DNA of 64,000 bases from Schistosoma haematobium (Eukaryota; Platyhelminthes; Trematoda; Strigeidida; Schistosomatidae): the NCBI RefSeq assembly GCF_000699445.3, contig NC_067202.1:12367924-12431923 (forward strand). Reading direction: 5' to 3'. Within the stretch, counting starts at the first letter, position 1; each line of letters starts with the position of its first letter. This document shows, in pieces, positions 1,190-63,184 of this stretch. The notes under the pieces are model-generated. The model was not told where the DNA came from, searched no databases, and worked only from the letters and a program-made list of their open reading frames with translations. The translations under genes and the position numbers were made by a program.

Positions 1190-1395
1190 AAAGTTGGCTA
1201 TCAGTAGAATCCGAGACGAGCGTTTCGTCCTATTCAGGACTCATTAGCCGGATATACTACCTTCGTCCCATTGTTCACAATGGAACATAGCACCTTTCAT
1301 TTCAAATGGCTAACACGTTATTCACTGAGCTGTTGAGTCCAAATAACTGCTAGCTTGTACAATCGATATAAGTTTAATTCTATATTTCCTTTTAG
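1190..1395 (-). repeat. Sm-alpha-type repeat carrying a hammerhead motif
   Basis: On the minus strand this block carries the hammerhead listed at 1209-1253 followed by sequence resembling the Schistosoma Sm-alpha satellite ribozyme (CGGATTCTACTGATAGCC). The flank containing gagtccaaataactgctagcttgt recurs around 20015-20050 (gagtccaaatagccactaacttgt), so it is a dispersed family. Published Sm-alpha elements are about 330-bp SINE-like units; the true ends here are not resolved. Confidence 0.65.
1209..1253 (-). ncRNA. Hammerhead ribozyme motif, core-mutated (Sm-alpha type)
   Basis: Read on the minus strand: stem I ATCCGG pairs with TCGGAT (1248-1253 with 1209-1214, one G-U); core CTAATGA (1241-1247); stem II GTCC (1237-1240) with GGAC (1227-1230); then GAAA (1223-1226); stem III ACG/CGT; and a GTC cleavage triplet. 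All three stems are intact, but the invariant core G5 of CUGANGA is replaced by A. That change abolishes or strongly reduces cleavage in characterised hammerheads, so this copy is probably dead. Confidence 0.8.
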
Positions 1396-2384: not shown

Positions 2385-3145
2385 CATTGTTGTTGTGTTT
2401 TTATCTATGTAGATTGCTTGTTCGGGTAGATATTAGGCCGTAATGACAGGAAAGCAGTTGTATGATTTCCCTCTCTCTTCCTAGTTCGATTATCGATTAG
2501 TTCACCTATATTGTTAGTGGGAACGGCAATCTTTTATTTACTAATTGACGCATCGATCAATGAACAACAGCCATGATCTTAACGATTATTTGTCTTCAAG
2601 CACTTTCTAACCCAGTAGCCAATTGGAAGACGAAGGTAGAGAGAGCGGATCTACTGTATTTTACTCAATTCAATCATGACTCAAAGCTCATACAATAATA
2701 TACTTGACATATTTTGACCACGCAGCAACACAGTTAGTGTATATAACTTAGTCACATGTGACACGGAACCGAAGCAATAGGGGAATAATTAATCAATGAT
2801 AAACCTGGAGTAATGAGACATATGACTACCATTTATGGAATGAACGCAAGCTTAGAAATTCCAGGTACTGTATATGTGGATTTAGGCATTCAGGTCTCCC
2901 ATCAGGTTGATCAGGCCCTTTCCTGAACATATCTCTACTGCAACCTCTCATTAAACTAGTCTTTATCGTCTTTGTTTTCATCATTGGTGTGCTCATAGCC
3001 CTGGATAAAATTCATCGTGATTCTCTCTTTTGGTCTTAAGAATGCTTTGGTGATTCTAGGTCCGTCAGATTCCTATCCTATAAGTGCTTTTCGTGCTTCT
3101 TTGGAAAACGTCGTGATCTTGCTCAAGATCATGGATCGATTGAAG
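2385..3145 (+). other. OATP intron, 5' part
   Basis: Intronic sequence after the GTAAGC donor. No exon-like frame or clear repeat was recognised before the ribozyme SINE at 3150. The rest of the intron to 4047 holds that SINE and unremarkable AT-rich sequence. Confidence 0.5.
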
Positions 3146-3149
3146 TTAA

Positions 3150-3325
3150 AGTCCGCACGCGAGACTTAGGGTCTTGCGTTCGAATCGTGGATGCGCACTG
3201 CTGAGGAGTCCCTGTACTGGGACGAAACAGCAGTCCAGTGTCTCCAAGTTTTTAAGGGTTGTCTAGCTTAGATCGACTCATGAATTCAACTGTGAAAATA
3301 CTAAAATCTCCACAAACCCCCATAC
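3150..3325 (+). repeat. Ribozyme SINE (SINE-H), 5'-truncated
   Basis: A partial copy of the tRNA-head/hammerhead repeat in the OATP intron. It keeps the B-box-like gttcgaatcg, then the hammerhead segment: stem I CACTG/CAGTG, core CTGAGGA, stem II GTCC with GGAC, and GAAA. Stem III (ACAGCAGT instead of ACGGCCGT) is damaged. The tail ends in ctccacaaacccc, like other copies. Confidence 0.8.
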
Positions 3326-10504: not shown

Positions 10505-10665
10505 TCGATAGAAAACCCTGGACCCGGGTTTTGTGCTACTTGGCACTCGTCAGCAAGGTAAACCTGTAATCTTGGTGGAACTGGTGCTCCCCGGCGGATT
10601 CGATCCCGTTTCAACCAATTTCATGGTCAGAAATGTTACCACTGAGATATCTAGATCCACACATG
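10505..10665 (-). repeat. tRNA-derived SINE, second family
   Basis: On the minus strand it begins TATCTCAGTGGTAACATTTC (A-box-like CTCAGTGGTAAC) and continues to a B-box-like GGGATCGAATCC, then GGGGAGCACCAGTTC. The same layout recurs on the + strand at 60600-60700. It lacks the hammerhead segment of SINE-H and its anticodon region is not tRNA-like, so it is a retroposed SINE head, not a tRNA gene. Confidence 0.65.
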
Positions 10666-10949
10666 ACATAGAAGAATCAATTGTAAAGCACAACATTGAT
10701 TTTTACAAGCAAAAAGAGGATATATTTGTTGTTTTAAAAATAGAATAGTCAATGCATAATGAAACTATGCGTATAACACATTATTAAAAGCATTAAAAAA
10801 AATGGTAAAACAGATTATTATTGTTATTATCCATCGTTTAAATGTTAGATTCCTTCTGAATGAAGATGAAAAGTAAATGAAGAGAAAAAAAAGGAATCAG
10901 ATTTTCTAAATAAAATAAAAAATTATTTACCAAACATCTTTTATTTCTG

Positions 10950-11303
10950 ATTGAGATCACGAACCGATTGATGTTAGACCACCTTTGGAAACGTGGAAGC
11001 ACTGGACAGCCTTTCCGTCCTATTGTGGGACTCCTCAGCAGTGCGCATCCACGATCCCGCTCACGGGATTCGAACCCAGGGCCTTCAGTCTCGCGCGCGA
11101 ACGCTTAACCTACTGGACCACTGAGCCGGTATCCAATGGTGATAGTGTCTAACATCGACCAATCCACGAAATTGCGCGACCATCTTCCATTGTACTGAGG
11201 TAGATACCTGTCTCTACCCGACATGGATTAGCTCCACTGGTCACGGCTTCTCAATAGAACTCCGAGAATTCCCTCACGAAGCTAGTCACTAGTGAGCACA
11301 TGT
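10950..11303 (-). repeat. Ribozyme SINE (SINE-H), near full length
   Basis: On the minus strand it runs from the 5' block (gctcactagtgactagcttc) through the tRNA-like head (CCGGCTCAGTGGTCC A-box region, GGGTTCGAATCCC B box) to the hammerhead: stem I GCACTG/CAGTGC, core CTGAGGA, stem II GTCC/GGAC. An extra G before GAAA (GGACGGAAA) and an altered stem III should disable it. The end of the unit abuts an inverted repeat at 11305. Confidence 0.85.
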
Positions 11304-11304
11304 T

Positions 11305-11423
11305 GATTACTAGTATAGGGGTTGTGAAGATTATTAAGTTTTTGACTAGCTTCGTGAAAAATCAGTCGGTTCATGATCTCAATCAAAAACTTAATAATCT
11401 CCACAACCCCTATACTAGTAATC
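11305..11423. repeat. Inverted repeat, 41-bp arms
   Basis: Arms 11305-11345 and 11383-11423 are reverse complements with one mismatch and a 37-bp loop. Each arm carries the SINE-H 3' tail (ctccacaacccctatactag), so the hairpin looks like two SINE-H tails or boundaries joined in opposite orientation. Confidence 0.9.
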
Positions 11424-15011: not shown

Positions 15012-15165
15012 GGTTTTGTGGAGATTGTAGTAATTTCGATATTTGAGATCATGAGCCAATTGAAGCTAGACCATCATGGAAAACCTGGAAACACTGGGCG
15101 GCCGTTTCGTCCTATTGTGGGACTCCTCAGCAGTGCGCATCCACGACCCTGCCGCACGGGATTCC
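15012..15165 (-). repeat. Ribozyme SINE (SINE-H), 3' part with hammerhead
   Basis: A copy inside the ATP5IF1-B intron, sense to that gene. Hammerhead at about 15091-15136 (minus strand): stem I CACTG/CAGTG, core CTGAGGA, stem II GTCC/GGAC, GAAA and stem III are intact, but the cleavage triplet reads GCC instead of GTC, which should prevent cutting. The head is truncated after the B-box region. Confidence 0.85.
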
Positions 15166-21115: not shown

Positions 21116-21386
21116 CTACCGCGCAGAATTCTATATTACTTAGAATTCTGCATGTATAATTACATTTACTTAATAGAAAGTTTCGTCAAAGGTGGGAAGT
21201 TATTTCGAAAACACCAATATGACACAATATCCGAAAACTGTTATTCTTTCTCCATTGCCAATCATTTCAGGCGAATAAATGACAAAGACTAGTTTACAAC
21301 CTAAACATTCCTCTTCACGAATGTACCGTTAACAAAGACGGTGGATTTCTAAAAACTTTCACCTTTTTCCTATTCCGTTACCATTT

Positions 21387-22511
21387 TTGAAAGAATTACT
21401 TTTATTATGTACAGCTAATGTTCAATTTACGTTTGATGGTGAATATTTTCGACAAGTTGATGGTGTAGCTATTGGTAGCCATTTAGGGCCTCTCTTAGCT
21501 GAGGTATTCATGTCATATGTGGAAAATATGACGAGCAACCTCATTAGTGAGACAACTCTATATAGAAGATATATGGACGATGTCCTAATTATATGTGATA
21601 AGGATTTTGATGTTTACCGATTACTGGATAAACTCAATGGTGTTCAAAACGATATTGTGATGACACATGAATCAGAAAGTAATGGCCAATTAGCCTTTCT
21701 AGACATACTTTTAAGTCAAAAGGATGATAGCACTATTAGACGGTCCGTGTATAGGAAACCAACTTGGACGGGACAATACTTAAATTCCCACAGTTTCTGT
21801 CCATTGCAATACAACAGAGGTCTAGTTAAGCGCCTCTTTAAGAGGACTCGAAGAATATGTACCTCTGATATGGTGGAAAAAGATGAAAAGTTACTGACTG
21901 ACACTTTAATAGCAAATGGTTATCCACTCAAGTTTATTAATAGGTGCAAAAGTCAGTTAATGCCAAGACCTCTAGTTTATTCAGTGCCAAAGAAAAAGGT
22001 TTATATCAATCTACCATATAGAGGCGAATCTAACAGTATAGTTTTAAGGCAGAGATTGAAAGCAGCCATCGAGAATACCTATTATGCTGCTCAACTGGTT
22101 GTGATTGAAAAGTCTAAGCCCATGATTCCTAATAGACCTAAACAATGCACTAATGATTACATCACATCCCATTGTATTTACCAATTTACATATTTGTGTG
22201 GATACACATATATAGGGAGGAGTAATCGAACAATGCAATCAAGGGTCAATGAACATGTGCCTAGATGGCTTCAAAATCAGTGTGTGTCAAATGATCCGAT
22301 CAATGTAGGAGGTAGAAAACCAACCTCATCGATAGCGAAACATATAATTGAGACGGGGCACAAAATTAACATGAATACAGCTTTTAGAACGTCGTATAGA
22401 AATTGTCAAGGTCGAATTTTTAAGTTTATTGAAGCCTTGGCCATTCGTAAATTTAAACCCCCCTTATGTGTACAAAAACAATTTGTCGTAACCTTGAATT
22501 TACCTTGGTAA
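21387..22511 (+). CDS. Penelope-like retroelement RT and GIY-YIG endonuclease (5'-truncated)
   Basis: A 374-codon uninterrupted frame. The reverse transcriptase part shows VDGVAIGSHLGPLLAEVF (about residues 25-42) and the catalytic YMDD box (62-65), then LAFLDILL and the thumb-like VYRKPTWTGQYLNSHS segment common to Penelope-like elements. The C-terminal third is a GIY-YIG endonuclease: CIYQ (263-266), YTYIGRSNR (273-281), NEH (288-290), SSIAKHIIETGH (314-325) and the metal-binding Glu in FIEALAIRKF (349). Penelope-like elements copy RNA into the genome and cut target DNA with the GIY-YIG domain. The N-terminal RT motifs are missing, so this copy is 5'-truncated; the frame has no stop, so insertion may be fairly recent. 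It lies between the two IF1 genes. One oddity is GSHLGPLL where GSPLGPLL is usual. No hammerhead was seen in its immediate flanks. Confidence 0.92.
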   Translation: MKELLLLCTANVQFTFDGEYFRQVDGVAIGSHLGPLLAEVFMSYVENMTSNLISETTLYRRYMDDVLIICDKDFDVYRLLDKLNGVQNDIVMTHESESNGQLAFLDILLSQKDDSTIRRSVYRKPTWTGQYLNSHSFCPLQYNRGLVKRLFKRTRRICTSDMVEKDEKLLTDTLIANGYPLKFINRCKSQLMPRPLVYSVPKKKVYINLPYRGESNSIVLRQRLKAAIENTYYAAQLVVIEKSKPMIPNRPKQCTNDYITSHCIYQFTYLCGYTYIGRSNRTMQSRVNEHVPRWLQNQCVSNDPINVGGRKPTSSIAKHIIETGHKINMNTAFRTSYRNCQGRIFKFIEALAIRKFKPPLCVQKQFVVTLNLPW

Positions 22512-24015: not shown

Positions 24016-25560
24016 CTAAGACCGCGAGAGTGGTCTGTGCTTTCGATTTATCCACCTTCTAGGCAATAATGAAGTGGTATCACTCTTTGCTGGCACAGAG
24101 ACTGACCTATCTGTTCCAGGGTTTTTGATTTGAAAGGTGTCCACCAGAACATCAAGAGGTATTCTATGTCTGGTCTTGTTGCTGGTGTTAGAAGTTGCTT
24201 TCAGTTGGTAAGCATGACATACCCAAACTTCTGATCCAACTGACGCCTCGTAAACCACACTTGCATTCATTTCACGATTCGGCAAGTTATCCATGTAGGA
24301 TGTTTGCTATGATAGTCTATAGTAAGTACTTTTTGATCCACCGTAAACAATCGCCTTTGTACCCCATGATGTTCCTAAAATCTTTTCGGTCGTCCCCTCC
24401 CTTTTTGATTTTTGAAGAGCAACAAAGCCTTCTATCTGGCCATTGGATCGGGGATGGAATGGAGGTTTTCGGGCATGACTGATTTCATTTGACTGACAAA
24501 ATTCTGAGAAGGTCGCAGACGTAATCTGTGTTCGATTGTTGTTAACTACTAATTCTGGGACCCCGAAACGACTAAACAGTTGCCGTAGTTTTCTGGCTGT
24601 GCAGCTTACAGTTGGATGTTCAATGATAAAAGTTTCTGGCCACTTGCTGTATGCATCAACTACTAGAAGGTAAGTTTGTTCATGAAGTATACCAGCAAAG
24701 TCCAAAGGTATACGCTACCACGGTGACTGTGGCGATGGCCGTGATTGCAGCTCCGCTTTCCGTGATACTTTTGTTTTGAATGCATATTTGGTACACGAAC
24801 AGGATAGCTGCTCCAGTTGAGTGTCTAAATGCAGCCAGTATACATGACTTAGTGCTAGTGCTTTCATGAGATTTATTCCAGAATGTCCCGCGCGTAACTC
24901 TTCAAGCACTGTTGGTAGCAGCTTCTTTGATATTATGACACGTTTGGCAAACGGAAGGTAGTCGCTTATGATTGAGGGAGATAGTCCGCGCTGATAAAAC
25001 TCCTGAAGCTCTGTGAAGCTGGTTTTCGAGGGCCACCCTTCTAGGTGGAACTTTTTAACTTGTAAAACTGGGTCTTGAAGAGTTTCTTCTCTGACTTCCT
25101 CTGATGACACTCGAGTGTGACGAATGGCATCTGCTATTATACACCTAATTTCTGAATCTACTATTATGGAGGCAAATTTTATTTTTAGCTTTTCTAGAAA
25201 CCTTTCACCTGTCTTTTCTGCAAGTATCGGGGTGTCCAATGATGAGCACGACAAGTTGCAGACACTGTTAATAGGTATATCTATTATTCCAAGTTTTTCT
25301 AGTATATCTAGATCAAGAAGATCAAAGTTCGGCTGTTCTGTTAGATAGCATATTCCTTCATAGTTAGTTCAAATGAAGGAAAATTCACACTGTAATTCGT
25401 CAACCAGTTTTAGCACTCCTCTTGATGAGCTTTTAGCGGTCTTCTTAGACGGCTTCATTGACGGTTTCCCAAGCAGGTTATACGTTTCTCTAGACACTAG
25501 GATGGTACCGGATGCTGTGTCAATTTGAAGACGCGCCCCAACATAATCCTGTATGGAATA
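24016..25560 (-). mobile_element. Ty3/gypsy-type element with internal deletion (protease-integrase)
   Basis: Read on the minus strand in order: an aspartic protease-like segment (QIDTASGTILVSRETYNLLG, then LEKLGIIDIPINS) at about 25560-25260; the very end of RNase H (VDSEIRCIIADAIRHT); the integrase zinc-binding region (AGHSGINLMKALAL...CSCTKYA); the integrase core (LDFAG...YLLVVDAYSKWPE); and a C-terminal piece (SEVWVCHAYQLK) with a linker tail to 24016. Reverse transcriptase and most of RNase H are absent, so a deletion joined protease directly to the end of RNase H. It sits in ATP5IF1-A intron 3 in the same orientation as the gene. LTRs were not identified. Confidence 0.8.
24307..25254 (-). 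pseudogene. Gypsy integrase, inactivated
   Basis: Integrase of the element above. It begins in the RNase H end and zinc-binding domain, then a TAG stop (about 24712) interrupts the entry to the catalytic core, where GAG/Glu is usual. In the core the first Asp is present (LDFAG), the second is replaced (VVNNNRTQ where the family has a D-N-G-like turn), and the Glu remains (NGQIEGF). Past it the reading frame is shortened by a deletion before the C-terminal piece at 24016-24294. A stop also lies in the protease part near 25368. Not functional. Confidence 0.8.
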
Positions 25561-36400: not shown

Positions 36401-37078
36401 TTATTTTTTAGATTTTGTGTTAGGTAACAAAAATGTTTTTTCAGTAAATCCTAAGCCATTGGTAATATATCGTGCAGCAGTAAACAGATAATCACTCAGA
36501 CGATTCAGGTACTTTACTACACTTTCTTCGACAACAGGATATTCGTGTTGAAGGTTCATGCTGATAACACACCGTTCAGCTCGTCTGCAAACAGCTCTCG
36601 CAAGTTGTAGGGAACTTCCGGGAGTTCCACCTGACGGTAATATGAAGACCTTTAGAAGCGGCAAAGCATTTGTCAAATTGTCAATCCATTGCTCTAGTTC
36701 AACTGAAACATCCTCTGGAAAAGCCACACGCTTATACCGCTTTGGACGCTCCGAAATATCGGTTTGGTTTTCAGGACGAGGAAGAGGTGTGGCTATTGAA
36801 GACGACATGCCCAGTAAACGACATTGTATTTGCTCTAATTGTTTTAAAACAGTTAGGACGTCATATTCGGGGAGCTGTCTGGATATATGATCATGAATAT
36901 GAGCTGACGCCAAGCCTATGCAACATGCAAGTTCATCAACTGTCCCAAGAGCATCGAACACAGGATCATTTTTGGGACGACGTTCACCAGTAAACAAACT
37001 ACTTGTCCCATTGTCACCTGTCCTAGTATATATTTTCACTGCTCGTTTTGGTACATGAGATATAAGGCTGGCACCCAA
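36401..37078 (-). CDS. MMAB: Cob(I)yrinic acid a,c-diamide adenosyltransferase, mitochondrial
   Basis: PduO-type corrinoid adenosyltransferase, which transfers the adenosyl group of ATP to cob(I)alamin to make adenosylcobalamin for methylmalonyl-CoA mutase in mitochondria. The frame shows the ATP-binding start KIYTRTGDNGTSSLF (residues 15-29), GERRPKNDPVFDALGTVDEL (31-50), the LPSGG turn (147-151), the signature ARAVCRRAER (160-169) and VVKYLNRLSDYLFTAARY (187-204), all in family order and spacing in one exon. Length matches the catalytic domain. The first codon of the ORF is TTG; the frame stays open upstream to about 37275 without an ATG, and in that extension a basic, Ser/Arg-rich stretch (RSLRSFNLFRFHSRN) looks like the mitochondrial presequence. 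The true start is therefore in an upstream exon; a possible acceptor is TATTCATTGTACAG near 37170. No AATAAA lies between its stop and the IF1-A exon. Adenosylcobalamin supports the helminth propionate pathway. Confidence 0.95.
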   Translation of the reverse strand: MGASLISHVPKRAVKIYTRTGDNGTSSLFTGERRPKNDPVFDALGTVDELACCIGLASAHIHDHISRQLPEYDVLTVLKQLEQIQCRLLGMSSSIATPLPRPENQTDISERPKRYKRVAFPEDVSVELEQWIDNLTNALPLLKVFILPSGGTPGSSLQLARAVCRRAERCVISMNLQHEYPVVEESVVKYLNRLSDYLFTAARYITNGLGFTEKTFLLPNTKSKK

Positions 37079-37179
37079 GTATACATTACGGCTGTGGAAT
37101 CGAAAAAGATTGAAAGATCTGAGACTTCTCGAACTACCAGAGATTTGTAGGTGACTACTGTATACAACTGTACAATGAA

Positions 37180-38220
37180 TAATATCAATGAAATAAAATA
37201 TACAATTTGCGAATCCCTCAGATAAAAATAAACCTTCTACTGAATAATAGTCATTAGTTACAACTACTATCTAATTATCTTCAAATTTCCTGTATGAGTC
37301 GACAAATGTGTATATACTACGACTCCCCATATAGTGGGATTTCAGTATCACTTATAATGAACCATAATTTTACGATATATGGTCTTAGAATTGATTTAGG
37401 CCCTATGTACAGAACTGATATCGTTTAGTATAGTCTGAATTGTGGCAATAAAAACTTAAGGCTAAAAACGAAGGGGAAACCAGGCACTAATCCGTATCAG
37501 ACAATCAAGTTTTTATGGTACAAGAATAATTAAGCCATGTGGTCAAGCTAGCTAGATTTTGAACGAAATCTCATATATTACAGGTATCGAATGAATAACT
37601 GATTTCATTTCGTAAAGCCAGAGAAAGTCCCAAGGTAATTGTTGTTTGTATTGCACTTACCCAATAGACAAAGGTTTCAGGAACGTCATTGAGTCTTTGA
37701 GCACCACCTTCAAATTTTGAGGGATGTAGGTTAACAAACGTTGCATGTCTAATATATCCAATATATCTCAAACTGAGTGTATGGATGAGAGTATCCGTAG
37801 GAGTATCTCCTAGGTCCTAATATATTCAAAGTTTGATTTAGTGAGCTTTCTTTAATCTCTCGATCTTATATTCCTGAAGAATAAGTGGTTTGCACCTCTA
37901 AAAGTGAAAAGAAAAAACTGATATCCCTTTGATTTGTGTGGTTGTATTTGAACATGAAGTGATCAATATAGAATTAGTGTAACGATAATATCATATACTT
38001 GTCATAAATTTCGGACGTACCTGTTGAACTTTTTTTACATTATTAACGGATAGACAAAAGAAATCGGTTAAGTGATTTAAATAAAATTAAGTTATCGGAA
38101 TCTCAAAAATATCACGTCATAAGAATCAAATTTCGAGACAAAGTACGTCAATCAACTTAACTTGTGATTCTACAAGACAGCATTGTATAATACTAACAAG
38201 TAAATCGGTGCTGAAGAGTT
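37180..38220. other. Upstream region of MMAB, repeat piece only
   Basis: Around 37560-37810 is a block (ttttgaacgaaatctcatatattacaggt ... caatagacaaaggtttcagg, in separate pieces) also seen near 5695-5740 and 6310-6420, so it is a dispersed repeat. No upstream MMAB exon was recognised. Confidence 0.45.
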
Positions 38221-41169: not shown

Positions 41170-42628
41170 CATTTCGTTGCAAGTTGTGCTTAACATTGTA
41201 ATACCGAACTTGTTAAGTTTGTATAATAATTCGCCGCTTAGCGTGATGTTCTCACACTCGCTAAGTCGAGGAAAACTACCAGAAAATTGGAGGCTGGCTC
41301 ACATCACACTAATTTTCAAAGGAGGTCGACGCAGCGAACCTTCAAGTTAGCGAACGGTGGCTCTTCTCTCAATGCCTTCAAAAATCATGGAGTCCCTGAT
41401 GTGCGATGGTATAAATGATTATTTACTGTCCTTAAATTTCTTCTCACCCCAACAGCATGGTTTCAGGAAGGATTACTCATGTATTACCAACCTGCTGACT
41501 GCGGTGGACAGATGGACAAGCATCCTTTATCACAAGGGGAAGGTTGATATCATCTACCTAGACTTCTCAAAAGCTTTTGATAAGGTTAACCATACATGTC
41601 TTATCAATAAGCTCAAACGATTGGGTATCAGACCACCTCTAATCGATTGGCTCACTTCATACCTGAAAAATCGGCATTTTAAGGTCAGGGTTAATTTAAC
41701 CTTATCTCAGGCTATGGAATGTCCCAGTGGGTTCCCCCAGGGCTCAGTACTAGGACCTCTTCTCTTCTTGATCTACATAAATGATCTTCCTCAACAGGTA
41801 ACGTCAGACTTATTACTTTTTGCCGACGGCGTGAAACTTTGGAGAGAGATACGCAACCAAGACGATATACAGGCACTTCAGGAGGATCTGACTCGACTTC
41901 AAAGTTGGGCAGATGACAACGGACTTACCTTTAACACTTCAAAGTGTAAAGTAGTCCATCTGCGACATGTCACAGAATACAGTTATAACTTAGGAAACTC
42001 CTCTCTAGTAGTATCACAAGTCGAAAAAGACTTAGGAGTCCTAGTGCCACACGATTTAAAGTCTTATGCTGCTTGTGATAAAAATGCCTTCCGAGCACAA
42101 CTTGCACTGGTAACATTGAAACGCATTTTTGGCCAGTTTGACGGAAGAACTTTCCATATAATCTTCATTAGTTGTATCCGTCCCCATTTAGAGTACGGAA
42201 ACATAGTATTTCCCCCCTCACTCCAAAAGGATAAGGACACCCCGGAGCGTATCCAACGGCGAGCCATGAAATCAGTCCGAGGGCTCAAATTCAAACCTTA
42301 CGAAGAGCGCCTCCATTCACTTAACCTTTACCCATTAGAGTATAGGCGTCTTAGAGGTGATCTTCTGATGGCTTATAGTATACTTAACACTTCTGGACAT
42401 CCTCTTAAACACCTACTTAAGCTTAGTTCCAACACTAACCTAAGAGGTAACACCCAAAAACTGGAGACACAACATAGCAGAACGGACTGTGGACACAACT
42501 TCTACTCCTTAAGAGTCGTCAAATGATGGAATTCGCTGCCGAGTGAGCTAGTCCAAGCAACTTCCCAGGAGTCCTTTAAGAGGCAACTTGATCTATTCTT
42601 AAGGACTAAGGATAGTATCACACTATGA
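41170..42628 (+). mobile_element. CR1/jockey-type LINE, 5'-truncated RT ORF
   Basis: The RT domain of a non-LTR retrotransposon begins abruptly near 41195 (LLSLYNNSPLSVMFSHSLSR) and runs to a TGA at 42626. Readable motifs include LPENWRLAHITLIFKGG, HGFRKDYSC, YLDFSKAFDKV, GFPQGSVLGPLLFLIYINDL, the FADG box, LQSWADDNGLTFNTSKCK and the C-terminal WNSLPSELVQATSQESFKRQL. There are two in-frame stops: TAG at 41348 and TGA at 42524. Endonuclease and ORF1 are missing. The 3' end of the element is not defined. Confidence 0.9.
41357..42526 (+). pseudogene. LINE reverse transcriptase with catalytic-site change
   Basis: The uninterrupted 389-codon centre of the LINE above. It contains RT motifs in order: YLDFSKAFD (67-75), FPQGSVLGPLLF (126-137) and FADG (155-158), where the family has FADD or YADD; the second catalytic Asp has become Gly (GGC codon). 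The same frame continues on both sides past single stop codons, so the copy is dead through point mutations rather than frameshifts and is probably of moderate age. It is not related to host function. Confidence 0.9.
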
Positions 42629-48570: not shown

Positions 48571-48640
48571 CACATTTAACTGAAGAGTCCGAAATAGGAC
48601 GAAACGTGCGGTCTGGATTCGATTGCCAGCCACCACTCAT
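48571..48640 (+). ncRNA. Hammerhead motif, Sm-alpha type, decayed stem I
   Basis: Core CTGAAGA (48580-48586; position 7 is free in the hammerhead consensus), stem II GTCC/GGAC (48587-48590, 48597-48600), GAAA (48601-48604), a short stem III and a GTC triplet, then TGGATTCGATTGCCAGCC as in Sm-alpha ribozymes. The upstream half of stem I (ATTTAA) pairs poorly with TGGATT. It lies antisense to PDE1 in the last intron. Confidence 0.65.
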
Positions 48641-48946: not shown

Positions 48947-50444
48947 CTAATAGAACAATATTTTAAAAACAATATATATATTACTTAAATAAAAGTCAAA
49001 TACATATAATCATGGAAACAATGTGAATCTTGGTAGATGATGAGAATGATCTTTACAATTGTTAAATCAACTATCTTGACTGACACAACAATACAACTTA
49101 AATGAATACAACATTTCTATATGTTTCACAGATGTGAGAAGTTCGTGATCGGTTTTCTTATCTTAAAATCAAAGTATTTTCTCCTACAAGTAATCCATCG
49201 TTCTTGTTGGTTTCTTTACAAAACCACCTAATCAATTCTACTTAACCGTCATCAGTTTTGTACACAAAAAATTGTTGGCAAAACACAGTTATGAAATAGT
49301 GATCTTGATATGGTGTTTTCTACTGATTTCGACAGATATAAGTAGTCTGTATGATTAATCGATAGTGAAATGTTTGGAGGTAGGAGGTTAAGAAAATCAA
49401 AGAAAAGAGAACGAGAATAGTGAATGTTTAGTGTGGTAACAAATGCCCAATGAAGTCTGAAACGATTGAAGTATTTACTGTACGGTTCTCAAATTTGACT
49501 AAGAGATTCTGTAATTTTGTTCTTGAATACATTCGATTGTCCCCATTTGTATTCTCATTCACTACATTCAGAATATACAAATATGAATAAAATACACGTA
49601 AGAAGTCCTAATTAATTTATACCTTATTTATGGGATTATTTAGTGGAAAGTTTGCTTTGAACAAACGAGACTGGAACCAATTTTTAAATGAGATCAGAAA
49701 GAATCAGTATTCCGAATACTTTAACACATATATTATATTGTTCCAATCTAATCATAATAAAGTAGTCTTTCTTATTAAGCTTGAACACTTTTTAACATTC
49801 GATAAAGATACCTTCTATAAAGTTACTAGTTAGCTGAATGATAGTTGTTGGGGTGATCCGAAAGACAAGCAATGATCAGGAAACACTAAGAACTATTTCA
49901 TCCAATCAGCGTTCACTTGAAGTTTTAGCCAGAAACATCAAGGAAGTGAAACGTCATATGTAGAGGTTCTGTTTGACTGATTGCTATACTGCTACTATGT
50001 TTAGTAGCATTCCAGAATCTTTGAGCAACCCAAGTGCATTTAAAATATTATAAAAACCTTATATTTTCTGTAATGAAATGAACCTTTGGAGTAAAGTACT
50101 TCTCGCATATTTTTCATCTTTTCTCTCATGTTCAGGCCGCTGTGTAGTTTTAGCTTAGGGGTTACAGAATAGCTTAGGAAACGAATATAGCGTTCAATTT
50201 ACAAGACTTATCAATAATCAGCTGTATTTGGGAAGTTCGCTTAAAAAGAACCAGAAGTAGTTCTTTTGTTCTTGATTTATTTCAGTTGTATAATCTCACT
50301 GAACAGTTGGAACTTCAAGGAAATATTATGTGTAGACAGGTTATTTAAATTTAGACATAGAGCGTTGTCATATGGGTGAGGTATGTAGAAAGCAACTCAC
50401 TCCTTCACCTAATTGATTCTATATAAATGAATATTTCTGTAATT

Positions 50445-50575
50445 TCAATAGTTGAACTCATGAGTCGAATGAAGCTAGATCACCATGGAAAACCTGGAAG
50501 CACTGGACGGCTGTTTCGTCCTAGTATTGGACTCCTCAGCAGTGCGCATCCACGATCCCGCCCCCCTGAGATTTG
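50445..50575 (-). repeat. Ribozyme SINE (SINE-H), hammerhead best preserved
   Basis: A copy in PDE1 intron 5, sense to the gene. Hammerhead at 50500-50545 (minus strand): stem I GCACTG/CAGTGC perfect, core CTGAGGA, stem II GTCC/GGAC perfect with a 7-nt loop, GAAA present, GTC cleavage triplet present; stem III ACAG/CCGT has one A-C mismatch. All catalytic residues are present. The head is truncated where the inverted copy 50576-50815 begins. Confidence 0.9.
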
Positions 50576-50815
50576 AAGTTAGACATTAACACCGTTTGAC
50601 GCCGGCTCAATGGTCTAATGGCAAAGCACTCACGGACGAGACCGACAGGTCCCGTGTTCAAATCACACGAGGCGGGGTCCTGAGTACGCGCTGCCACGGA
50701 GGAGTCCCATACTAGAACGAAACGGCCGTCCATTGCTTGCAGGTTTTCCATGGTGGTCTAGCTTCAATTGACCCATGATTTCAAACATTGAAATTACTGA
50801 AATCTCCACAAAACC
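50576..50815 (+). repeat. Ribozyme SINE (SINE-H), inverted neighbour
   Basis: It contains the complete tRNA-like head (GCCGGCTCAATGGTCTAATG, B box GTGTTCAAATCAC), the hammerhead region with a damaged core (CGGAGGA for CTGANGA) and stem II (GTCC/GAAC), and a full tail to ctccacaaaacccc. Antisense to PDE1, head-to-head with 50445-50575. Confidence 0.88.
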
Positions 50816-50874
50816 CCTTCTGAGAATATTTTTGTCTTTAAATCTATGAAATTTACACTTAGATTAGCGGAAAC

Positions 50875-51204: not shown

Positions 51205-51600
51205 AATAAGGGTTATGCGGAGATTGTAGTAATTTAATAGTTGAGTTCATGAGTCGATTTAAGCTAACCCCCCATGAAAAACATGGAAGCACTGAACGGC
51301 CGTTTAGTCCTAGTGTGGGACTCATCAGCAGTGTACATCCACCATCTTACACGCGATATTCGAATCCAGGACCTTCAGCATCGCGCACGAACATTTAACC
51401 TCTAGACTACTGAGCCAGCATAAAACGGTGTTAATGTCTAACTTTAACCAATTCACGATAATGAGCGACCGCCCACCATTTTCTTCAGTGAGTAACTGCC
51501 TCATAACATACACAGTTGAACTTCACTAGTCACGGCTTCTTATTAGAATTCCACGAAATTCATATGGAAGCCATTCACTGGTGAGCATATGATTATTATG
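51205..51600 (-). repeat. Ribozyme SINE (SINE-H), full length, tandem unit 1
   Basis: A complete unit of about 395 bp in PDE1 intron 4: 5' block, tRNA-like head (CTCAGTAGTCTAGAGGTTAA, GGATTCGAATATC), then hammerhead with the canonical core CTGATGA, stem I CACTG/CAGTG, stem II GTCC/GGAC and stem III ACGG/CCGT. The conserved G before AAA is T (TAAA), which should abolish cleavage. It directly abuts the unit at 51601-51815 in the same orientation. Confidence 0.9.
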
Positions 51601-51815
51601 AGAAAGAGGGTTATGTGGAGATTGTAGTCATTTAATAATTGAATTCATGAGTCAATTCAAGGTAAACCACTGGAAAGCCATCCTGTCGTAGTATGCAACT
51701 CCCCAGCAGTGCTCATCCACAATCCTGTACATGGGACTCGAACCCATACTACGATGAAACAACCATTTAGTGCTTTCAGGTTTTCCATGATGATCTAATA
51801 TAATAATAGATTTTA
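51601..51815 (-). repeat. Ribozyme SINE (SINE-H), tandem unit 2, rearranged
   Basis: Second head-to-tail unit beginning at the tail (gggttatgtggagattgtag). A deletion removes part of stem I and the tail, and the right end switches at about 51745 into a + strand SINE-H piece (actacgatgaaacaacc ... ggttttccatgatgatctaa). Ribozyme core degenerate. Confidence 0.75.
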
Positions 51816-57419: not shown

Positions 57420-57810
57420 AAAATTTCAATAGATGAGATCATAAGTCTATTGAAGCTGGGCCACCATAGAGGCACCACATGGAGGCACTGGACGACCATT
57501 TCTTCCTATTGTAGGACTCCTCAGAAGTGTACATCCACGACCCTACCCTGTGGGAATCGTACCCAGGACCTATCAGTCTCGCGCGCTAGCGAGTGTTTAA
57601 CTACTAGACCACTGAGCCGGCATCCAAAGGTGTTAATGTCTAACCTCAACTAATCCACAAAATTGAGCGACACACGCACCAATGTCTTCAGTGAGTTACT
57701 ATCTCACAACTGACCCAGTTGAACTCCACTGGTCACTACTTCTCACCAGAACTCCAGGCTATACATCTTGAAGCCAGTCACTAGTGAGCATATGTTGATC
57801 AATATCAGAA
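57420..57810 (-). repeat. SINE-H, full length
   Basis: About 390 bp, PDE1 intron 1, sense. Head with CCGGCTCAGTGGTCTAGTAG and B-box region GGTACGATTCCC (mutated). Hammerhead core CTGAGGA and GAAA intact, but stem II (GTCC/GGAA) and stem I are weakened. Includes the complete 5' block ending agtcactagtgagcatatg. Confidence 0.88.
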
Positions 57811-61302: not shown

Positions 61303-61712
<410 letters not shown>

Positions 61713-61714
61713 GG

Positions 61715-62295
61715 ATATTTGCTATACTTATATATTGTTTTCATGTTCAATCTGAAGAGTAACAAAACTTTACAGAACGTAATGTGCATTTTGTTTATTA
61801 TCCCATCATAATATATCAGTAATGAATGATAATACTTCATGTTGTTTAAATGTTCTAACAACAACCACAACAACAATGATAATGATGCTGATGATGTTAA
61901 AGTCGACAATCATTATGAAGGTATTGATGTTAATGATGATGATGATGACGATAAATGAAATACGCCTTTTTCATCATTTTTCTTTTTTTTTGTTTTCGTT
62001 TTTCGAAAAATGATTCAATATTCAATAAATTTTCACTATTTCAATTTGTCATTTTAACAATAAAAATGGGTGTGGTCCTTTTTTATAAACAAATAAATAA
62101 ACATTTTTTTATATCTAAGGTAATAAATAAATAAATAAAGGGAAATAGATCCCATTTATTTTTTTTAAATTTTTTTAAGGAGTGGACTGTTAAAAATAAC
62201 AATTATTGATTGATATACTGTTTCGTTCTTCTTTTTTTGTCCTCGTCAATATAACTATTGGATTCGAAAATATAATTTGTTTTGTTTTGTTTTAA
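61715..62295. other. No gene seen; short simple repeats
   Basis: Short GAT and AAT runs near 61875-61960, T-rich runs near 61980 and 62160, AAATA units near 62128. No exon. Confidence 0.45.
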
Positions 62296-62299
62296 TGAT

Positions 62300-62655
62300 T
62301 GAATTCATAAGTCAATGAAAGTTAAACCATCATGGATAAGCTGAAAGCACTGGATAGCTATTTTGTTCTGATATGGGACTACTCAGCAGTGTGCATCCAT
62401 GATCACACCTCCTGAGACATTCGAACCCAGGACCAATCAGTTTCACGCGCGAGTGCTTAACCATTAGACCACTGAGCTGGTCGGCATTTAACGTTGTTAA
62501 TGTCTAACTTCAACCAATCCACGAAGCTGCGCTACTGTACATCATTGTCTTAGAGTGAGTTGATATCTCACAACATACCTGGTTGAACTTCACTGGTAAC
62601 GGCTTCTTACTAGGACTCCAGGAAATGCCTGTTGAAGTCAGTTACCAGTGAACAG
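62300..62655 (-). repeat. SINE-H, full length, tandem unit 1
   Basis: Complete unit with head (CAGCTCAGTGGTCTAATGGT, B box GGGTTCGAATGTC) and a degraded hammerhead (core CTGAGTA; stem II GTCC/GAAC; AAAA for GAAA). Directly followed by a second unit in the same orientation. Confidence 0.88.
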
Positions 62656-62930
62656 ATTATTATTATCAGCAGGGGTTTTGTGGAGGTTTTTACAAATTTC
62701 AGTAGTTGAAATCATGAGTCAATTGAAGCTAGACTACCATGGAAAACCTGGAAGCACTGAACGGCCGTTTTGTCCTAGTATGGGACTCCTCAGCAGTGCG
62801 CATTCGCGATCCCGCCTCCCGAGACATTCGAACACAAGACCTGTCAGTCTCGCGCACGAACACTTAATCTCTAGACTAGTGAGCCGACATCCAACAGTAT
62901 TAATGTCTTACTTCAACTAATCCACAAAAT
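62656..62930 (-). repeat. SINE-H, tandem unit 2, hammerhead well preserved
   Basis: Hammerhead at about 62755-62800 (minus strand): stem I GCACTG/CAGTGC, core CTGAGGA, stem II GTCC/GGAC and stem III ACGG/CCGT intact; the conserved G of GAAA is A (AAAA), and the triplet is GTT. Head present; 5' block truncated at 62930 where a + strand copy begins. Its hammerhead is 407 bp from that of unit 1. Confidence 0.88.
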
Positions 62931-62934
62931 CGGC

Positions 62935-63060
62935 CTGGGGAGATTCACAATAGGACAAAACAACCGTCCAGTGCTTCCAGGTTTTCCATAATGGTCTAGC
63001 TTCAATTGACTCATGATTTCAATTATTAAAATCGCTATAGTATCCATAAAACCACTTCTG
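62935..63060 (+). repeat. SINE-H tail, inverted piece
   Basis: Begins in the hammerhead's 3' half (caataggacaaaacaaccgt) and runs through ccaggttttccataatggtc to ccataaaaccacttctga. Head-to-head with 62656-62930. Confidence 0.85.
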
Positions 63061-63184
63061 ATATTATACATTTGTGTCGTTTTTCTTCATTGATAACTCT
63101 TTGTCTATAGAAGTGAGATAAAACCGGATAACTTTAAATGACGTTGGCATAGTTACAAAGAAAATATAGTTTTTTTAATTAAAT

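Follow-up and report, generated by a model that had tools for sequence, protein, structure and literature searches.

Head-to-head insertions of a hammerhead ribozyme repeat in Schistosoma haematobium

Within a 64,000-nucleotide stretch of Schistosoma haematobium DNA (the window) and in loci sampled from the genome, we characterized a repeat in which a tRNA-like head is followed by a type I hammerhead ribozyme and whose copies are often joined head to head. This repeat, comprising the subfamilies B1 and B2, is probably a putatively non-coding, SINE-like hammerhead retroposon of the W-element or non-LTR retrozyme kind, with a circular or multimeric template that would be primed twice. The ribozyme is a well-supported S. 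haematobium addition to the known schistosome hammerhead elements, and it is the insertion structure that matters more. If mirror-image doubles with one target duplication are regular, thousands of genomic scars would test a circle against a multimer or a dimer as the template.

The repeat unit and its ribozyme

The unit of approximately 400 bp (GC 49%) runs in the order spacer, tRNA-like head, ribozyme, tail and then spacer again. The working references, of 401 bp for B1 (loop CATACTA) and 398 bp for B2 (loop CACAATA), were partly hand-edited, and length differences of a few bases mean little; BLAST ends are uncertain by a few bases as well. The repeat is distinct from two further hammerhead families in the window. 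Searches with nhmmer and blastn placed a B1/B2 copy at all 13 positions listed by an earlier reading of the window (the initial annotation), which had named the repeat a tRNA-headed SINE. The tRNA-like head was supported, while the designation as a plain SINE was set aside, the unit being approximately 400 bp and copying being able to exceed one unit. Eleven arms were found to exceed one reference unit by at least 25 positions, one of which (in locus L078) is just 360 nt long because of deletions. Boxes A and B lie 45 nt apart in the unit reference. The Rfam tRNA model RF00005 gave no match to the head in 12 loci at up to E = 10, and ARAGORN called no tRNA in the window, with weak calls only at lowered thresholds. 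It was noted that a TTTT directly behind the ribozyme, at unit position 325, could end pol III transcription early. The ribozyme copies and the head sequences in the window are as follows, with scores on the Rfam model RF00163 (Hammerhead_1).

50500-50545, minus strand: type I hammerhead with all catalytic residues kept (45.1 bits, E 2.4e-08; alignment)
3195-3241, plus strand: second window copy with every catalytic residue (33.7 bits, barely under the gathering score of 34)
57485-57530, minus strand: catalytic letters intact, closing pairs broken in stem II (G-A) and stem I (T-C) (26.6 bits, under gathering)
50691-50742, plus strand: damaged hammerhead in the right arm of an insertion, core CGGAGGA (29.8 bits, under gathering)
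15091-15136, minus strand: hammerhead with the cleavage triplet altered to GCC (43.6 bits)
62754-62799, minus strand: hammerhead in which AAAA replaces GAAA and C17 is altered (39.9 bits)
51289-51334, minus strand: hammerhead in which TAAA replaces GAAA and C17 is altered (38 bits)
10999-11044, minus strand: hammerhead with GAAA changed to GGAA (36.2 bits)
50611-50621, plus strand: box A-like sequence of the tRNA-like head, TGGTCTAATGG (read by eye; unit reference)
50656-50664, plus strand: box B-like sequence, GTTCAAATC (read by eye; unit reference)

The RF00163 model reached its gathering score (34 bits) at eight places in the window, and five of these belong to B1/B2 (50500-50545, 15091-15136, 62754-62799, 51289-51334 and 10999-11044; 36.2-45.1 bits). 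Three further B1/B2 copies, at 3195, 50691 and 57485, match under this score, and the remaining three of the eight matches (1209, 48574 and 10515) belong to the two other hammerhead families. The initial annotation had proposed a type I hammerhead behind the tRNA-like head, which was recovered at 50500-50545 with 45.1 bits; its claim that this copy keeps every catalytic residue held in the alignment, with the strand corrected to minus. Going by the motif, cleavage in this copy is predicted between 50506 and 50505, 3' of GUC. With up to three mismatches allowed, the spaced core pattern was found seven times in the window and in none of 100 dinucleotide shuffles. All 12 catalytic letters are kept in three of the ten aligned window copies (50500, 3195 and 57485), and the other seven carry a catalytic change, such as the loss of G12 at 62754 and 51289 or of U16.1 at 15091. 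The majority of the old window copies are decaying relics.

Across the whole S. haematobium genome, the intact pattern CTGANGAGTCCCAYANTAGGACGAAACGGCCGTCC occurs 2,248 times (1,180 forward and 1,068 reverse), compared to 0 + 0 for the reversed control, and the consensus carries all catalytic residues as had been claimed. From these counts and the intact window copies, it is very probable that the catalytic core of the founding element was intact, and in many copies it still is. Exact-pattern copies from 12 loci score 47.3-55.2 bits on RF00163. The hammerhead as a chance fold was ruled out by the genome pattern counts, with their control of zero, together with the window shuffles (0/100).

We assessed conservation in two samples, which share some copies and whose fetched B1/B2 loci all lie on contig C1, to approximately 9.5 Mb. 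Among 87 B1 segments that lack the exact search pattern, 61 of 716 cells (8.5%) deviate at catalytic positions compared to 300 of 2,033 (14.8%) at other ribozyme positions (Fisher p 1.5e-05), and deviation elsewhere is 14.9% in the tail, 14.8% in the spacer and linker, and 22.6% in the head. All 12 catalytic positions are kept in 17 of the 54 B1 segments that cover them. The second sample was picked by tail sequence alone, using a pattern that retrieves only B1 copies and has 1,252 + 1,274 exact matches in the genome (control 0 + 0); it comprises 48 distinct places in 50 loci. Catalytic positions deviate in 37 of 538 cells (6.9%) in this sample and the remaining ribozyme positions in 189 of 1,520 (12.4%; p 2.9e-04). 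Of the 43 copies spanning all 12 catalytic letters, 20 keep them intact. A contrast between B1 and B2 (2/46 differences in the ribozyme, 81/367 elsewhere) was dropped as mostly invalid because the search pattern had fixed most ribozyme letters.

The B1/B2 ribozyme possesses CUGANGA, GAA, A15.1-U16.1, C17 and three stems. Two details of the initial annotation were revised: the G at core position 7, taken as a class marker, occupies the free N of CUGANGA, and stem III drawn as ACGG/CCGT lacks a loop and cannot close. The letters after GAA read ACGGCCGU, and without a loop there is no fold-back; within one molecule, stem III forms two pairs around GGCC, compared to eight pairs between two molecules. 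In an alignment of 16 ribozymes of three families, 91.8% of the stem cells are paired, with changes on both sides in 8 of 14 pairs, and pairing falls to 19-45% when the stem partners are slid out of register. The covariation score of 0.339 was reached by none of 500 shuffles; stems I, II and III all covary, which supports the fold described by the initial annotation. Thermodynamically, a lone B1 ribozyme favors a rival fold that pairs the core (-13.8 kcal/mol, with the hammerhead at -8.6 kcal/mol), and the energy advantage of the intact 46-nt ribozymes over their shuffles is slight (z -1.2 and -1.3 for two intact forms).

Several hammerheads outside B1/B2 were also recorded. The SMalpha-like hammerheads (family A) occur in the window at 1209-1253 (minus) and 48574-48618 (plus), both damaged there, and also in loci L001-L008; the best genome copies of this family score 73.2 bits. 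The third family is represented at 10515-10559 (minus) and has a compensated stem II (GUGC/GCAC), the stem III loop CCGG and another box-B-like head; in this copy GAAA reads AAAA. In locus L021, positions 2436-2506 (minus) match the twister-P1 model with 50.7 bits (E 1.3e-08), under its gathering score of 67.2.

Head-to-head insertions

The initial annotation had treated the copies at 50445 and 50576 as two elements, and these were found to form a single double insertion at 50441-50828. The head-to-head insertions in the window are listed here.

50441-50566, minus strand: left arm, spanning unit positions 252-377, of the double insertion at 50441-50828 (alignment)
50573-50828, plus strand: right arm of the same 50441-50828 insertion, covering the unit from position 155 onward, tail included, and containing the tRNA-like head and a damaged hammerhead
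50429-50440, plus strand: left target-site duplication GAATATTTCTGT (8-nt exact core; extension to 11/12 by eye)
50824-50835, plus strand: right target-site duplication GAATATTTTTGT (same basis as the left; overlaps the right-arm end by a few bases)
10944-11422, no strand: head-to-head double insertion of subfamily B2 with the 13-nt duplication ATCTTTTATTTCT
51210-51797, no strand: head-to-head insertion whose left arm of 537 bp exceeds one unit; a clear duplication was not found
62299-63074, no strand: head-to-head insertion whose left arm of 630 bp exceeds one unit; a clear duplication was not found

Four of the 11 window insertions are head to head, and the window was not picked for insertion structure. 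The long arm at 51210-51746 accounts for a strip of the repeat (51424-51592) that fell outside the scheme of the initial annotation.

We then compiled 63 loci and the window (192,879 bp, 184 segments), counting neighbors as abutting when at most 15 bp apart. Head-to-head orientation with the tails outward was found in 58 of 68 abutting neighbor pairs, with three tail-to-tail and seven tandem. In the tail-chosen loci, 31 abutting pairs are head-to-head, three are tail-to-tail and three are tandem. At a distance of up to 40 bp, 40 of 68 intact-pattern copies and 25 of 48 tail-chosen copies have a head-to-head partner. The SMalpha-like family has a similar profile, with 11 head-to-head, no tail-to-tail and one tandem among its abutting pairs.

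Outer flanks were compared for exact shared words of at least 9 nt, which were common to 25 of 54 pairs compared to 1.9% of mismatched controls, and to 13 of 21 tail-chosen pairs compared to 1.7% of controls. In the same test, single segments gave 8 of 43, some being simple repeats. One target duplication thus surrounds both arms in approximately half of the pairs, which fits a single insertion event, and the other half shows no target duplication at the 9-nt threshold.

The ends of the arms also follow a pattern. In both samples, 3' ends are bimodal and cluster around unit positions 372-380 and 404-412, and the listed pairs often have one arm ending in each group. Inner junctions fall at many unit positions, arm lengths differ inside pairs, and the arms commonly overlap at the junction by 1-4 nt. 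Across 38 comparable pairs, 33 have arms that overlap on the same RNA region by at least 40 nt.

The two arms of a pair resemble each other in sequence, sharing 34% of deviations, compared to the 12% (B1) and 8% (B2) shared by arms taken from different loci; this raised sharing could alternatively stem from gene conversion between the inverted arms. Subfamily is the same in both arms of 51 of 52 clearly assigned pairs, where 15.5 discordant pairs would be expected under independence, and different times of activity could alternatively produce such agreement. The right arm of the lone discordant pair (L051) does not end at the tail.

No 5' end lies within 6 nt of the cleavage site in the 48 tail-chosen copies, and 45 of these 48 arms read through the site, so the copied RNA was mostly uncut there, or was cut and then rejoined; this speaks against a linear template that had been cleaved. 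A cleavage-site signature in the 5' ends, suggested by a weak excess (7/92) in partly chosen loci, was not reproduced (0/48) and was dropped. It was also noted that the same head-to-head insertion occurs twice, approximately 24 kb apart on contig C1 (L011/L012 and L014/L015), which suggests a local segmental duplication.

Proposed template form and alternative explanations

In the mechanism that we propose, a pol III-type head would drive transcription of a unit RNA of approximately 400 nt, and a trans-acting enzyme would reverse-transcribe this RNA at the target. For roughly half of the examined copies, each target strand would prime one cDNA; one of these would start close to the end of the tail (peak 404-412, slightly beyond the 401-nt unit) and the other some 30 nt further in (peak 372-380), and the two cDNAs would fuse head to head, often via microhomology. 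The duplications and the microhomology are consistent with target-primed reverse transcription that starts on both target strands (twin priming). Because both arms re-read one RNA region, a circular or multimeric RNA of one source would permit this structure, and a ribozyme dimer of two RNAs would permit it too; the simplest account would be an RNA that is either circular or an uncut multimer, comes from a single source and is primed twice. We infer from the genomic pattern what form the template had, that transcription starts in the head and that the RNA cleaves itself 3' of GUC.

More broadly, and with somewhat less than an even chance in our estimation, schistosome hammerhead retroposons (B1/B2 and SMalpha) may largely insert head to head by use of two fixed priming places on a circular, multimeric or ribozyme-dimerised RNA, with the ribozyme shaping integration. 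If true, this would provide genomic evidence for the template form assumed by retrozyme models, at a rate far above human L1 and Alu twin priming.

One alternative is that the arms come from two RNAs joined as a double hammerhead, which the palindromic stem III ACGGCCGU would permit, the dimer bringing two templates to one target. Two B1 ribozymes co-fold to an exact double hammerhead at -36.1 kcal/mol, compared only to twice -13.8 kcal/mol for lone molecules, and stem III loops are palindromic in all three families (GCGC, GGCC and CCGG). However, SMalpha gives no exact double-hammerhead co-fold even though 11 of its 12 abutting pairs are head to head, and the arms share variants and subfamily, so the two RNAs would need the same source. 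We consider a dimer of two RNAs unlikely.

We regard as improbable a conventional pol III SINE that inherited the hammerhead as a useless passenger and formed its pairs by ordinary L1-type twin priming. Boxes A and B are present with their 45-nt spacing, the catalytic changes in 7 of 10 aligned window copies and the read-through of the cleavage site by 45 of 48 tail-chosen arms agree with a passenger, and the duplications are compatible with ordinary target-primed reverse transcription. Against this, catalytic positions are approximately half as diverged as the rest in two samples, and the stems covary between families. The paired copies (40/68 and 25/48) also stand against human twin priming, which the available text of PMC12016303 puts at 18-22% among L1 insertions and 0.02% among germline Alu insertions. 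The same text gives a median overlap of 12 bp for human twin-primed cDNAs that overlap, compared to the at least 40 nt found in 33 of 38 pairs here. A DNA transposon of foldback or MITE type, moving as a unit and carrying the repeat by chance, would explain inverted arms with a short target duplication, but it is most improbable and was rejected because the inner junctions vary across many unit positions, with arm lengths differing within pairs, and single and tandem copies also exist.

Relation to known hammerhead elements and other window features

The proposed retroposon, primed twice on one template, was compared to published elements through the accessible parts of the sources cited here. 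SMalpha and Sjalpha are described as hammerhead SINEs (PMC2770079), and the S. mansoni 'Sm' element as a second small non-coding hammerhead SINE beside SmAlpha (PMC4350168). B1/B2 resembles SMalpha / W36.2 and Sjalpha in its SINE-like plan of tRNA-like head, type I hammerhead and tail, and the SMalpha-like family of S. haematobium also inserts head to head. By its unit of approximately 333 bp and its tRNA-Gln(TTG)-like head, that family belongs with SMalpha, and it has stem I AUCCAG/CUGGAU and the stem III loop GCGC. B1/B2 falls outside SMalpha / W36.2, with a unit of 398-401 bp, another head and other stems; the initial annotation was correct in describing the stem sequences as unlike those of SMalpha.

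It had also left the novelty of the element in doubt, and this caution was justified: schistosome hammerhead elements of a similar size class other than SMalpha are in print (PMC8490949, PMC4350168, as far as their text is available). In PMC8490949, type I hammerheads are described in W25.2, W26.2 and W27.2, whose units measure 415-428, 399-402 and 403 bp, respectively. This group resembles B1/B2 in unit size (399-428 bp there, 398-401 bp here), in a type I hammerhead weakly similar to SMalpha and in dispersed partial autosomal copies, and W25.2 has a possible target-site duplication. Orthologs of W25.2, W27.2 and W36.2 are reported there from all examined species including S. haematobium, with the ribozyme kept in nearly all cases, and in vitro cleavage is reported for candidates 1-3, which derive from W25.2/W36.2 variants. 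Judged by published description, B1/B2 very likely represents the W25-W27 group in S. haematobium. The 'Sm' element (PMC4350168) is likened to B1/B2 by its description as a small hammerhead SINE. For S. haematobium, the accessible text of PMC5993326 records 16 hammerhead-like small-RNA elements, seven overlapping SINE/tRNA repeats.

Metazoan non-LTR retrozymes, for which platyhelminths are named among the hosts, are described as type I hammerheads in repeats of 150-450 bp that occur as dimers or longer, with target duplications and no protein-coding region (available text of PMC7229834 and PMC7761336). B1/B2 shares the type I hammerhead in a repeat of this size range, the copies exceeding one unit (11 arms) and the target duplications. 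The retrozyme GC content of under 45-50% makes the 49% of B1/B2 borderline, and circular RNA is the characteristic retrozyme product in these sources. In the largely open literature that was searched, a description of head-to-head insertion was not found for schistosome hammerhead elements or retrozymes. The term 'head-to-head' is absent from the available text of PMC8490949, and 'inverted' appears four times, none of them on paired insertions. Six words of 12-15 letters from the repeat matched eight papers in a literature text search, none with a schistosome title, and no relatives of the repeat were found in viral contigs.

Two reverse transcriptase fragments are present in the window, with no link to B1/B2 shown. 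The first, at 21333-22511 (plus), matches RVT_1 just under the Pfam cut-off and is a possible supplier of reverse transcriptase; the segment after RVT_1 looks like a GIY-YIG nuclease, which we take to be the arrangement of Penelope-like elements. The second, at 41351-42526 (plus), is an RVT_1 reverse transcriptase (101 bits) that we label as LINE-type. Retrotransposon integrase pieces were noted at 24307-25368 (minus), as weak Integrase_H2C2 and rve matches under the cut-off. Among six scanned reading frames, the clearest host gene is a cobalamin adenosyltransferase coding sequence at 36401-37270 (minus; PF01923, 169 bits). The window also contains an ATAG microsatellite at 61303-61717, with 104 copies and 99% matches.
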